Below, one piece after another: positions 52,938-58,584 of a stretch of 64,000 bases of DNA; the stretch's first letter is position 1; the number at the start of each line of letters is the position of its first letter. Location of the stretch: NCBI RefSeq assembly GCF_000794385.1, contig NZ_JTJB01000030.1:1-64000 (forward strand), read 5' to 3'. The notes below the pieces were generated by a model. It was not told the DNA's origin. It ran no database searches and was given only the letters and a program-made list of their open reading frames with translations. Source of the DNA: Thermus sp. 2.9 (GTDB lineage Bacteria > Deinococcota > Deinococci > Deinococcales > Thermaceae). Position numbers and translations under genes: made by a program.

Positions 52938-53075
52938 ATGGATTTGTCAAGACTTCCCCCCTTCAAGCGGGCTTTGGTGGAGAAGGCCCTGCGGCGCGGA
53001 GACACGGCGTGGGCGGAGCGGTTGCTGGCGATGTTCGCCGCGGATGCGCCGCCCCAGGAGCAAGAAGAGGTAAGC
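52938..53075 (+). pseudogene. N-terminal stub of an unknown gene cut by an IS element
   Basis: An ATG at 52938 follows GAGAGGGAG and begins MDLSRLPPFKRALVEKALRRGDTAWAERLLAMFAADAPP, a plausible charged helical protein start. After about residue 45 the frame runs into the antisense of the IS256-like transposase, so the rest is lost. A TATACT at 52880-52885 could be its -10 box. I do not recognise the family; the exact junction lies between about 53069 and 53091. Confidence 0.45.
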
Positions 53076-53090
53076 CCAAATTCCCCCAAG

Positions 53091-53582
53091 CCCCTTCCTC
53101 AGCACCTTCAGGGAAAACCCATCCAGGTACACGAAGGCCATCTCCTCCGGCAAGGGCCTCTTCCGGAAGGCCTCCGCCTTCTCCAGCACCTCGTCCGTGA
53201 TGGCGCCCTTGGTCTCGTGGGTGTAGCGGTGGCCCAGGAGGAGGCTCATCACCTCCGCCGCCTTGCGCTGGGTGACCCCGGCGGCGTACAGGGCCACCGC
53301 CACCTCCCCCACGTCCACCTGGCGGCGGGCGTAGGGCTGGTTGACGGAGTCCCCGCGATAGCGGAGGAAGCTGGGGTAGTACCGCCCTTCCCGATCCCGG
53401 GGGATGGCCAGTTCCACCTGGCCGAAGGCGGTCTCCAACCTGCGGGGGTAGTGGCCGTTCTCGCGCCCGCCCTTTTGCCGGAGAAAGGCGTCCCGGTCCG
53501 CCTCCAGGAGAAGCTGGAGCACCTCGGTCACCGTTTCCTTCACCGCTTCCCGTAGCAGGGCTTGCAGGGTAGACGGGTCCAT
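53091..53582 (-). pseudogene. IS256-family transposase, 5' fragment
   Basis: The first 164 residues of a mutator-type transposase: MDPSTLQALLREAVKETVTEVLQ, QKGGRENGHYPRRLETAFGQV, LYAAGVTQRKAAEVMSLLLGHRY and the first catalytic region FVYLDGFSLKVLRKG. The ATG at 53582 follows AGGAGGT. Family members are near 390 residues with a DDE triad; here everything after the first catalytic Asp is missing, so it is inactive. The frame continues to 52947 only by chance through foreign sequence. Confidence 0.8.
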
Positions 53583-53612
53583 GGGGTACCTCCTGTCTGG
53601 CTCCTGTACCCC

Positions 53613-53700
53613 CCCTTTTTTACACAAACCCATATACATAATTCCTTACACGACCGCCCTTTTTGCACAAACTCATACACAGTATTCCTTACACGACCCC
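53613..53700 (-). repeat. IS256-like terminal region, duplicated 44-bp unit
   Basis: Two imperfect copies of a 43-44-bp unit stand in tandem (53613-53656 and 53657-53700) directly upstream of the transposase start. Both contain ATTCCTTACACGACC at the outer end and CCCTTTTT near the inner end, and differ at about ten positions. Read on the minus strand each begins GGTCGTGTAAGGAAT, as an IS terminal repeat would. Either the end was duplicated or one IS inserted into the end of another. Confidence 0.6.
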
Positions 53701-53934: not shown

Positions 53935-56185
<2,251 letters not shown>

Positions 56186-56195
56186 CCCCGCAAAG

Positions 56196-56238
56196 AAAAA
56201 CCCCCGGGACGGGCCCGGGAAGCCAGGCTTCCCAGGCC
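56196..56238 (-). promoter_or_regulatory. lysJ attenuator: alternative hairpins and terminator
   Basis: On the minus strand two hairpins overlap. The first pairs 56238-56228 with 56221-56211 (11 bp with one U-G pair). The second pairs 56219-56214 with 56208-56203 and is followed by five T (56200-56196), forming an intrinsic terminator just before lysJ. The 3' arm of the first contains the 5' arm of the second, so only one can form. This is the layout of transcription attenuation. Confidence 0.65.
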
Positions 56239-56241
56239 GGT

Positions 56242-56265
56242 TTAGGTTTTGCCCCGGACGGCCAT
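56242..56265 (-). CDS. Putative 7-codon leader peptide of lysJ
   Basis: On the minus strand an ATG at 56265 follows GAAGGGGAG and is read MAVRGKT before TAA at 56242-56244. It contains one Arg and one Lys codon and ends 4 nt before the antiterminator hairpin. Ribosome progress here could choose between the two hairpins. Leader-peptide attenuation is known for the main lysine cluster of T. thermophilus; whether this ORF is translated is not shown. Confidence 0.5.
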
Positions 56266-56274
56266 CTCCCCTTC

Positions 56275-56303
56275 AGGGTAGGGGGCGGGCCCCCCGGTGT
56301 CAA
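56275..56303 (-). promoter_or_regulatory. Promoter of lysJ-lysK
   Basis: On the minus strand a perfect TTGACA (56298-56303) and TACCCT (56275-56280) with a 17-bp spacer. Transcription should start near 56268, just before the leader ORF. Confidence 0.8.
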
Positions 56304-56308
56304 CGGGA

Positions 56309-56314
56309 TAGACT
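56309..56314 (+). promoter_or_regulatory. -10 box TAGACT of folK
   Basis: TAGACT lies 6 nt before the GTG at 56321; divergent from the lysJ promoter. Confidence 0.5.
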
Positions 56315-56320
56315 GGGGGC

Positions 56321-56800
56321 GTGCTGGCCTACGTGGGCTTGGGCTCCAACCTGGGGGATCGGGCGGCCTATCTCTTGGCCGCCTCCTCCCTCCTTTCCCG
56401 CCTCCCCAAGACCCATCTCCGCCGCCTTTCCCCCGTATACGAAACCGCTCCCCTTGGCCCGCCCCAACCCCCTTACCTCAACCTGGTGGCGGAGGTGGAG
56501 ACGGGCTTGGGCCCAAGGGAGCTCCTCGAGGCCCTCTTGGGGGTGGAGAGGGCCTTGGGCCGGGAGCGCAAGGAGCGCTGGGGCCCGAGGACCATTGACC
56601 TGGACCTCCTCCTCTACGGGGACCTGGTCCTGGAGGAGGAGGGGCTTCAGGTGCCCCACCCCAGGCTCCACGAGCGGGCCTTCGTGCTGGTGCCCCTTTT
56701 GGACCTCCTCCCCGAGGGGCGGCACCCCGCCTTGGGCCTCGGCTTCGCCGAGCTCTTGGCGGCCTTGGACGCCTCCGGGGTTTCGCCCCTTGTGCTATAG
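56321..56800 (+). CDS. folK: HPPK, folate biosynthesis pyrophosphokinase
   Basis: A 159-aa enzyme that pyrophosphorylates 6-hydroxymethyl-7,8-dihydropterin. The motifs AYVGLGSNLGDR, SPVYETAPLGPPQPPYLNLV, and WGPRTIDLDLLLYGD with the two catalytic aspartates are complete, and HPRLHERAFVLVPL closes the domain. GTG start set by the adjacent -10 box. No other folate genes are adjacent. Confidence 0.93.
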   Translation: MLAYVGLGSNLGDRAAYLLAASSLLSRLPKTHLRRLSPVYETAPLGPPQPPYLNLVAEVETGLGPRELLEALLGVERALGRERKERWGPRTIDLDLLLYGDLVLEEEGLQVPHPRLHERAFVLVPLLDLLPEGRHPALGLGFAELLAALDASGVSPLVL

Positions 56801-56839
56801 TGGGGGCATCGCGGGCAGGACCGCGCGAGGAGAAGGAAA

Positions 56840-57217
56840 GTGGAGATAGAAGCGGGAAGCATCGTGGAAGGCCGCGTGGTGCGGGTGACGGATTTCGGCG
56901 CCTTTGTGGAGCTTCCGGGCGGGGAGCAGGGCCTGGTGCACATCTCCCAGATCGCCCACGAGTTCGTGAAGAACGTCCGGGACTTCCTCAACGAGGGGGA
57001 CATCGTCCAGGTGATGGTGAAGGGTCGGGACGCCAAGGGCCGGCTGGACCTTTCCATCAAGGACCTGACCCCGGCCCCCGAAGGGGCGCCCCCGCCCCGG
57101 CCCCGGCGGCTCCCCAAGCAGTCCCCGGAGTTTGAGAACAAGCTCAAGAGCTTCCTCCGGGGCACCGGGGGGTTTGGCGGTGGCAAGGGCAAGAAGGGCG
57201 GCCGCAGGAAGCGTTAG
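56840..57217 (+). CDS. S1 RNA-binding-domain protein
   Basis: A 125-aa protein. One S1 domain (GSIVEGRVVRVTDFGAFVELPGGEQGLVHISQIAHEFVKNV) occupies residues 5-75; a proline-rich linker and a strongly basic tail rich in glycine, lysine and arginine follow. It resembles YugI/GSP13-type single-S1 proteins that bind RNA or ribosomes. GTG start behind AGGAGAAGG; an extended -10 element (TGCTATAGT, 56793-56801) lies upstream. Confidence 0.8.
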   Translation: MEIEAGSIVEGRVVRVTDFGAFVELPGGEQGLVHISQIAHEFVKNVRDFLNEGDIVQVMVKGRDAKGRLDLSIKDLTPAPEGAPPPRPRRLPKQSPEFENKLKSFLRGTGGFGGGKGKKGGRRKR

Positions 57218-57230
57218 CGCCCAAAAGGGA

Positions 57231-57259
57231 CCCCGGGGGGTTTATCCCTCCGGGGCTTT
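57231..57259 (+). terminator. Hairpin terminator before trxA
   Basis: A 10-bp GC-rich stem (57231-57240 with 57246-57255, one G-U pair) followed by a short CTTT. The T-run is weak, so some read-through into trxA is possible. Confidence 0.5.
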
Positions 57260-57277
57260 GCCGTAGAGTAGGGGGGT

Positions 57278-57607
57278 ATGGCGAAGCCCCTGGAGGTTAC
57301 CGACCAGAACTTTGATGAGCTCTTGGGCGGCCACCCCTTGGTCCTGGTGGATTTCTGGGCGGAGTGGTGCGCGCCTTGCCGCATGATCGCCCCCATCCTG
57401 GAGGAGTTGGCCCAGGAGTACGAGGGGAAGCTGGTGGTGGCCAAGCTGGACGTGGACGAAAACCCCAAAACCGCCATGCGCTTTCGCGTGATGAGCATCC
57501 CCACGGTGATCCTCTTCAAAAACGGCCAACCCGTGGAGGTCCTGGTGGGGGCGCAGCCCAAGCGCAACTTCCAGGCCAAGATTGAGAAGCACCTGCCCCA
57601 GGCATGA
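57278..57607 (+). CDS. trxA: Thioredoxin
   Basis: A 109-aa thiol-disulfide reductase. The active site is WCAPC (30-34), one residue different from the common WCGPC, and the cis-proline is in [12 protein letters not shown]. No signal peptide, so it acts in the cytosol. Its stop overlaps the plsX ATG (ATGA). As bacillithiol synthesis genes here are frameshifted, thioredoxin may be the main cytosolic thiol system, but that is inference. Confidence 0.94.
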
Positions 57608-58584
57608 GAATCGCCCTGGACGCCATGGGGGGGGATCGGGCCCCGGAAGTAACGGTCCAGGGGGCCCTCTTGGCGGCCCGGGAGGGGGTGGAGGTCCTTT
57701 TGGTGGGGGAGGAAGAGCGGCTTAAGGCGACCTTGGCCCGTTTTGGGGGAAGGCTTCCCATCCACCACGCCCCCGACTGGATCCCTATGGAGGAGCACGC
57801 CACCGAGGTGCGCAAGCGCCGGGAAAGCTCCATCTGGGTGGCCATGGAGCTCCTCAAGCGGAAGGAGGTGGAGGCGGTGGTTTCCATGGGGCACACCGGG
57901 GCCACCATGGCCGCCGCCCTGTTCGTTTTGGGCCGGGTCCGGGGGGTGGAGCGGCCCGCCCTCCTCGTGGAGTTCCCGAGCCTAAAGGGGCGCACCTTCT
58001 TGCTGGACGGGGGGGCCAACGCCGACTGCCGCCCCCCCTTTTTGGTCCAGTTCGCCGCCATGGGCCTGGCCTACGCCGAGGCCAGCGGGGTGGCCCATCC
58101 CAAGGTGGGCCTCCTTTCCATCGGGGAGGAGGAGGGGAAGGGAAACGCCTTGGTCCTCGAGGCCTACCCCCTCCTGCGGGCGGCCTTGGGGGAGCGCTTT
58201 TTCGGCAACGTGGAGGGGCGGGACATCTTCCTCGGCACCGCGGAGGTGGTGGTCACGGACGGCTTCACCGGGAACGTGGCCCTGAAGCTGGCGGAGGGGG
58301 AGGCCAAGGCCCTTTTCACCTGGATCAAGGAGGCCTTCGCCTCTAGCCCCTGGGCCAGGCTGGGGGCCCTGTTGGCCCGGGGGGCCTTGCGCCGGGTGAA
58401 GGCCCGGGTGGACCCCTCCCAGTACGGGGCCATGCCCCTTTTGGGGGTGGAGGGGGCGGTCTTCGTCGGCCACGGCTCGGCGGATGCCTTGGCGGTGAAA
58501 AACGCCCTCCTCCGGGCCAAGGCCTTGGTGGAGGCGGGGCTTCTTGCGCGGGTGCGGGAGGCCCTGGCCGCCCTACACGTCTAG
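57604..58584 (+). CDS. plsX: Phosphate acyltransferase PlsX
   Basis: A 326-aa enzyme that turns acyl-ACP into acyl-phosphate, the first step of membrane glycerolipid synthesis. [39 protein letters not shown] and [13 protein letters not shown] are the family motifs; length is normal. It overlaps trxA by 4 nt and the convergent archease gene by 12 nt. The usual fabD/acpP neighbours are absent. Confidence 0.94.

Follow-up and report, generated by a model that had tools for sequence, protein, structure and literature searches.

The trp, his and leu attenuators of enterobacteria have leaders of at least 14 codons, several of them regulatory, together with a Shine-Dalgarno site and a 1:2 pause hairpin. 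A leader-peptide attenuator has also reportedly been described for the main lysine cluster of Thermus thermophilus (said to be in J Biol Chem, 2005). We regard both the attenuation mechanism of the trp/his type and the lysine attenuation of the main Thermus cluster as already known. PMC9031893 cites leaderless short-ORF attenuators for cysteine in mycobacteria (Canestrari et al. 2020), which are said there to regulate the translation of the downstream genes, and PMC4633059 gives candidate leaderless short-ORF attenuators of mycobacteria.

Here, we studied a putative attenuator upstream of lysJ-lysK in a window of 64,000 nucleotides, the whole stretch of DNA that was analyzed (genome G000, contig 30); all coordinates are window positions, and the element is read on the minus strand toward lysJ. 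"Thermus" denotes the window's genus in our genome collection (27 genomes, all with lysJ), and the assignment to that genus draws on the original prediction, the best lysJ family (LysJ_Th_th) and general knowledge. Leader-peptide attenuation of lysJ-lysK, as it had been proposed, gives the best fit to all of the data, with the ORF and the stems kept in 26 of 27 genomes. We consider it highly probable that the element is a ribosome-mediated transcription attenuator that tunes the transcription of lysJ-lysK to the supply of lysyl-tRNA by means of one Lys codon. The original prediction knew of no earlier description of attenuation at lysJ-lysK, and our search of the open-access literature, with most subscription journals outside its coverage, likewise found no description of the lysJ leader or of the main-cluster attenuator. 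As far as that literature shows, what is new is the lysJ leader itself, its reliance on a single codon and its conservation across the genus.

Layout of the region upstream of lysJ and lysK

Table 1. Features of the lysJ-lysK region of the window, with their variation among the 26 Thermus leaders where it applies.
Feature	Position	Strand	Observation
-35 element TTGACA	56298..56303	-	TTGACA in 26/26 leaders; spacer 17 bp in 23, 18 bp in 3
-10 element TACCCT, TANNNT type	56275..56280	-	TACCCT 19, TAGCCT 3, TAGGCT 3, TACTCT 1 (n=26)
Discriminator / very short 5' end, holds GGGGAG with spacing 0 to ATG	56266..56274	-	-10 to ATG 9 nt in 22, 8 in 1, 7 in 3 (n=26)
Leader ORF MAVRGKT-stop, 7 codons, ATG GCC GTC CGG GGC AAA ACC TAA	56242..56265	-	7 codons in 26/26
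Codon 6 AAA, invariant Lys codon	56250-56248	-	AAA in 26/26
Antiterminator hairpin GGCCTGGGAAGCCTGGCTTCCCGGGCC, 12 bp folded	56238-56212	-	written GGCCTGGGAAGCC-T-GGCTTCCCGGGCC
Segment 2, antiterminator 5' arm, GGCCTGGGAAGCC	56226..56238	-	folding; 9/12 pairs never vary in 22 distinct sequences
Segment 3, antiterminator 3' arm; its CCCGGG doubles as terminator 5' arm	56212..56224	-	folding
Terminator hairpin (segments 3:4), TTCCCGGG-CCCGT-CCCGGGGG	56201..56221	-	8 pairs, 6 G-C
U-tract TTTTTCTTT	56192..56200	-	T5 at 56200-56196, then CTTT
lysJ, [LysW]-aminoadipate semialdehyde transaminase; start ATG 56179	54999..56179	-	best family LysJ_Th_th
lysK, [LysW]-lysine hydrolase; start overlaps lysJ end by 4 nt	53935..55002	-	family match

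The predicted 7-codon ORF MAVRGKT is present upstream of lysJ at 56265-56242, and the overlapping terminator hairpin with five T was found at 56221-56201, followed by T5 at 56200-56196. The hairpin upstream of it, which had been given 11 bp, is present as well but folds with 12 bp. On the minus strand of G000, ACC lies between the leader stop TAA and the antiterminator hairpin, and CGTCCCGGGGG follows GGCCTGGGAAGCC-T-GGCTTCCCGGGCC and reaches 56201. Positions 56221-56212 are common to both hairpins, and antiterminator and terminator are mutually exclusive, as had been proposed. The distance from the ATG to the end of the U-tract is 74 nt, and the transcript part ends in TTTTCTTT in 25 of the 26 leaders and in TTTTTTTT in 1. 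Ahead of the lysJ ATG, a GGGGG stretch is found at 56189-56185.

The promoter had been called perfect, which holds for the -35 element TTGACA but not for TACCCT, where only three of six positions agree with TATAAT; a promoter scan of 54000-58000 did not list the lysJ-leader promoter. TACCCT fits the TANNNT -10 motif of Deinococcus-Thermus, and a TA[CG][CGT]CT element of this leaderless type stands 7-9 nt before the leader ATG in 26 of 26 leaders. Transcription is expected to start about 7 nt after the -10 hexamer; in the 26 leaders it would begin 0-3 nt before the leader ATG, and the purine stretch GGGGAG would be largely untranscribed. This stretch had been read as a Shine-Dalgarno site, but it abuts the ATG, between the -10 element and the expected start site, and is probably no such site. 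Because the ATG lies only 9 nt past the -10 hexamer, the mRNA of the lysJ leader is probably leaderless. In PMC12340547, TANNNT located about 6-7 bp before ORFs of D. radiodurans is described as the promoter of leaderless mRNAs, and the motif is reported across Deinococcus-Thermus. About 18 bp separate the -35 element of the lysJ promoter from the start of a divergent folK (56303-56321); judged by eye, several other species have something other than this folK end upstream of the promoter.

We take lysJ and lysK to encode the last steps of the lysine route. In the G000 assembly, lysJ is frameshifted near 55360, where one G is missing (AAGGCGGGC at 55344-55363) and the other loci of the genus have one base more. 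Judged by match ends, lysJ is also broken in G003, G007, G017 and G021, which makes 5 of 27 genomes; by eye, each broken copy lacks one base, mostly in a run of G, and the breaks are likely to be assembly errors. Downstream of lysK, an ORF at 52947-53639 on the minus strand has a translation that by eye resembles a truncated mutator-type (IS256-like) transposase.

Conservation of the leader and its stems in Thermus

From one sequence alone, the stems could be chance. A simple scan of 54000-58000 found 3 terminator-like sites against 4.1 expected, and the folding z-scores of five stretches against shuffles ranged from -2.0 to -0.1. Neither folding energy nor the promoter and terminator scan separates the element from chance, and both were rejected as evidence. 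Judged by comparison of genomes, the element does exceed chance, and this rests on its genus-wide conservation: the promoter, the 7-codon ORF and both hairpins precede lysJ in 26 of 27 Thermus genomes. The comparison with relatives, which could have gone against the original prediction if they lacked the ORF or the stems, left it standing, both being kept in those 26 genomes. A covariance model with the stem in register gave one strong match in each of them (E <= 2.4e-17), all before lysJ, and the next best match in the 111 genomes of the class had E = 3.3e-5, in a search that used stricter filters and scored 44 candidates per genome. Many of the lower-scoring matches correspond to the same hairpin read on the opposite strand, and no promoter-leader layout was seen by eye at three weaker matches (L145, L146, L148). 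The exception within the genus is G010 (L092), where the promoter is followed by 9 nt and then directly by the lysJ ATG, as in a leaderless gene and as if the attenuator had dropped out. In G049 (L112), a close relative in another genus, we found a promoter-like TTGACG...TACCCT and no lysJ leader. The element is absent from both genomes and is therefore dispensable.

The 26 sequences comprise 18 distinct ORFs and 22 distinct transcripts, and all counts ignore relatedness through shared species history. In every one of them the leader ORF consists of an ATG start, six codons and a stop, with no indel (26 of 26). Codons 2 and 3 occur in 7 and 6 forms, respectively; codon 4 is Arg (CGG/CGC) in 19 leaders and Trp (TGG) in 7, codon 5 encodes Gly in 25 leaders and Arg in the remaining one, and codon 7 is Thr in 20, Ser in 3, Ala in 2 and Pro in 1. 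The search for conserved leader codons in other Thermus genomes, which had been suggested as a check, singled out codon 6, which is AAA (Lys) in 26 of 26. Just 1 of the 26 leaders has a second Lys codon (AAG at codon 2), the other 25 having one. Lys is written AAG in 67 and AAA in 5 of the 72 Lys codons in six neighboring coding stretches. Because the base following the AAA of codon 6 varies (A, G or C), AAA is preserved as a codon and not as a run of A. Averaged over all pairs of sequences, identity amounts to 0.58 for the 17-bp promoter spacer (23 sequences), to 0.71 for codons 2-3 and to 1.00 for codon 6. The leaders stop with TGA in 16 cases, TAA in 8 and TAG in 2, and the use of all three stop codons at one fixed place is hard to explain except by translation termination. 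The spacer from the stop to the stem varies in sequence and has a length of 4 nt in 20 leaders, 3 in 4 and 5 in 2. By these patterns, the leader ORF is a real reading frame under coding constraint.

The regulatory codon, Lys AAA at codon 6, matches the end product of the operon, lysJ-lysK. Stalling had been proposed at the single Lys or Arg codon or at the stop. Of these, Lys6, present in 26 of 26, appears to be the likely sensing codon, and Arg4 does not. An Arg codon was rejected as the sensor on account of the Trp at codon 4 in 7 of 26 leaders.

A search of the stems for co-varying bases had also been suggested as a check. Almost none were found, since the stem hardly varies, and only one pair has changes on both sides. 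Besides the invariant pairs of the antiterminator stem (Table 1), one pair varies on one side only and one is broken once in the 22 distinct sequences. The pair with both-sided changes, 29:56, has two of them, yet it is unpaired in 8 of 22, and the observed covariation score was reached by 46 of 500 shuffles. The sequences thus back the antiterminator stem by conservation and not by covariation.

Ribosome position and the choice between the two hairpins

The RNA from the ATG to the U-tract was folded at equilibrium, with neither polymerase nor pausing, and with its first m bases blocked; the output was the terminator pair probability, P(terminator). The footprint, on which the outcome depends, was set to extend through base +16 from the first P-site base, a textbook value that is not from Thermus and for which a change of one base means a shift of one. 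An A site occupied by Lys6 corresponds to m = 28, and one occupied by the stop codon to m = 34. At 37 C, a ribosome waiting at Lys6 kept P(terminator) below 0.25 in 25 of 26 leaders, and one that had reached the stop raised it above 0.75, again in 25 of 26. Two leaders did not switch as modeled: L099 had 0.75 with Lys6, and L087 had 0.07 with the stop, in the A site. By the same thresholds, the counts for Lys6 and the stop were 25 and 25 of 26 at 65 C and 23 and 25 of 26 at 70 C. A-site codons 2 to 6 gave the antiterminator, the stop gave the terminator and codon 7 lay in between (median 0.23 at 37 C), which makes Lys6 the final sense codon ahead of the switch. The position of the ribosome thus chooses in silico between the exclusive antiterminator and terminator, with 20 of the 22 distinct sequences switching between Lys6 and the stop, and the computed switch spans 6 nt.

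We also moved the blocked edge by -8 to +9 nt, which equals a change in the spacer, and scored 18 spacings in the 22 distinct sequences. At 37 C, 20 sequences switched at 0 and 20 at -1, 19 at +1, 18 at -2, 8 at -4, 7 at +2 and at most 2 at +/-5 or beyond, and the native spacing tied for the top score among the 18. At 65 C, spacings of 0, -1, +1, -2, +2 and -4 allowed 20, 19, 20, 14, 8 and 2 of 22 to switch, respectively. The spacing between leader and stem is constrained.

The homocitrate synthase leader of the genus was the intended positive control and proved to be a weak one. The same calculation gave P(terminator) of 0.10-0.78 for Lys6, 0.78-1.00 for Lys7 and 1.00 for the stop, and equilibrium folding as modeled gives no clean switch for this leader, whose attenuation is reportedly known from experiment. 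When nothing is blocked, the folded RNA of the lysJ leader prefers the antiterminator, and in G000 leader bases pair with segment 4; the preference for the antiterminator means that the model has read-through for ribosome-free RNA. How the leader would avoid read-through without a ribosome is left unexplained by the model, and this counts against the attenuation reading.

We infer the following course of transcription start, translation, stalling, termination and lysine response. RNA polymerase would start about 0-3 nt from the leader ATG, and a ribosome would load directly on the leaderless 5' end. If lysyl-tRNA is short, the ribosome would wait at codon 6, the AAA being in its A site and its leading edge only at the base of segment 2, so that the 12-bp hairpin 2:3 could form, sequester the CCCGGG needed by the terminator and let the polymerase read into lysJ. 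If lysine is plentiful, the ribosome would stand two codons further on, at the stop, and mask 6 more nt of segment 2; hairpin 2:3 would be lost, hairpin 3:4 would form before the U-tract and transcription would end. The predicted direction of control is that a stall at Lys gives read-through and that reaching the stop gives termination. In the model, a shortage of any amino acid encoded by codons 2-5 would likewise prevent termination. Several or tandem regulatory codons are usual in attenuators, though not strictly required, and the lysJ leader has one Lys codon; this difference from the several codons of classical attenuators counts against the attenuation reading.

Related leaders, alternative explanations and known systems

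The homocitrate synthase gene of Thermus has a leader ORF of 14 codons with Lys-Lys (AAA AAA) at codons 6-7 in 26 of 26 genus loci read, a count that leaves out G021 (L175); in G000 it reads MLARGKKLGRRGVG-stop (G000:C1, upstream of 139887, L156). This KK leader is presumably the main-cluster attenuator published in 2005. It is probably also leaderless, with its ATG close to the likely -10 element. Outside the genus, KK leaders precede homocitrate synthase at 6 of 7 loci read (G049, G058, G059, G060, G061 and G064), and at the G062 locus (L205) no leader was found in the stretch examined. Among the matches listed, the lysJ model had none at E <= 0.01 on a homocitrate synthase leader.

The region upstream of lysJ was read in 51 of the 90 genomes with a LysJ match. 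Leaders with an R-K-P motif, that is, with Lys after Arg and before Pro, were found before lysJ in nine genomes of three other genera. They read MLPRSRKPRHRG[SL]G-stop in G027-G028, MFASSRKP[VM]QREVG-stop in G029-G030 and MK[AVT][LW]KPRKPEVRGKP-stop in G059-G062 and G064, and the Arg-Lys-Pro core CG[CT] AAA CC[TG] is conserved in all three genera (L113-L116, L180-L184). No R-K-P leader was found before lysJ in G049, G032, G038, G058, G065, G067, G069-G071, G050 (two loci), G053, G055, G057, G083 and G108. The end of the g13 leader, R-G-K-P-stop, resembles the R-G-K-T-stop of the window. As modeled, the switch of the other-genera lysJ leaders is not sharp. The terminator was favored at nearly every codon of the eight sequences folded, with P(terminator) of about 0.84-0.92 when the Lys of R-K-P is in the A site, rising to 1.00 one codon later. 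Codons 2-4 of the g13 leaders also gave 0.97-0.99 (0.52-0.61 at codon 2 of G064), and in the G030 leader P(terminator) falls to about 0.05 from codon 10 on, which is unfit for simple attenuation.

The three kinds of other-genera lysJ leader are similar in length to the homocitrate synthase leader, and that of G027/G028 shares its outline, M-L-x-R-x-[RK]-K ... R-G-x-G-stop. These similarities in length and outline make a common origin of lysJ and homocitrate synthase leaders plausible. The g2 and g3 genomes, four in number, have a LysX-family ligase; as no homocitrate synthase match at E <= 1e-120 was found in them, their lysJ may serve another pathway.

Several other explanations of the element were weighed. 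The leader might sense arginine or the general amino-acid supply, with stalling at Arg codon 4 or anywhere in codons 2-6, as would fit the CGG/CGC codons at codon 4 in 19 of 26 leaders and the read-through that the model gives for a ribosome at any of codons 2-6. The g2 and g3 lysJ leaders hold more Arg than Lys, and in these four genomes, with a LysX-family ligase but no homocitrate synthase match at E <= 1e-120, lysJ might serve arginine. We nevertheless find such sensing quite improbable, as TGG (Trp) stands at codon 4 in 7 of 26 leaders and only Lys6 is invariant, Lys6 comes last among the sense codons ahead of the switch point and the names given to the downstream genes assign them to lysine synthesis. 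In the model, the terminator forms when the ribosome is at the stop codon, and the leader keeps G-K-[TSAP]-stop (G5 in 25 of 26, K6 in 26 of 26), with g13 leaders ending in R-G-K-P-stop. This would suit nascent-peptide arrest, in which free lysine or another ligand pauses the ribosome with the finished peptide at the stop and so favors the terminator. However, the peptide has only 7 residues, four residues (Thr, Ser, Ala, Pro) occur at codon 7 and two (Arg, Trp) at codon 4, and a codon fixed to AAA is not needed for a peptide effect, all of which makes arrest of this kind very improbable.

A fixed intergenic terminator accompanied by a short ORF, setting a low basal level with no regulation, has a smaller probability still. 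Such hairpins are common in the G+C-rich DNA here (3 found, 4.1 expected), and the element is absent in G010 and G049, but the indel-free ORF, the invariant AAA, the three stop codons and the constrained spacing would all be left unexplained, as would the similar leaders in other genera. Next to no probability remains for translation-independent control by a lysine riboswitch, a T-box or a protein-bound RNA. L-box and T-box regulation of lysine genes is common in other phyla; however, a permissive Rfam search at E <= 1 gave three sub-threshold matches on 55000-57500 and none on 56192-56303, and an Rfam riboswitch or T-box was rejected for lack of any match on the element. The distance from the ATG to the end of the U-tract would also leave little room for an L-box or T-box of the usual sizes, and the ORF signature points to translation.

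Beyond attenuation through Lys6 as such, the chances seem about even for a wider proposal. The lysJ leader would be among the smallest natural attenuators, with a 70S ribosome on a leaderless 5' end, a single Lys codon, a 6-nt (two-codon) shift and a 3-5 nt spacer, and would form with the homocitrate synthase and R-K-P leaders an old leaderless lysine-attenuator family in Thermales, in which a leader of 14-15 codons was cut to 7 in Thermus. If this is true, codon-level sensing in a thermophile needs only seven codons, one of them informative, with no Shine-Dalgarno site and a 6-nt window. The element would then be a clean system for asking how leaderless initiation can be quick enough for coupling to RNA polymerase and how specificity can come from a single codon. 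The main lysine cluster and the detached lysJ-lysK pair would be under the same signal via separate leaders, completing the known lysine control of Thermus.

With the mycobacterial cysteine attenuators, as described in PMC9031893 and PMC4633059, the lysJ leader shares a very short ORF located at the mRNA 5' end or close to it, reading that is free of a Shine-Dalgarno site and control of the biosynthetic genes that follow. The mycobacterial leaders have runs of several Cys codons, in contrast to the one Lys codon and the intrinsic terminator found here, and no sequence relation is claimed. As in the trp, his and leu attenuators, the position of the ribosome would select the antiterminator or the terminator, but the lysJ leader would decide with a single codon and within 6 nt, and it shows no clear pause hairpin. 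The homocitrate synthase leader differs from it in stem sequence and has 14 codons, tandem AAA AAA and a distant stop, against 7 codons, a single Lys and a stop two codons after that Lys in the lysJ leader. These two leaders have in common the genus, the pathway, the TTGACA promoter and an ATG near the likely -10 element, and both place Lys at codon 6 ahead of two exclusive hairpins and a T-tract.
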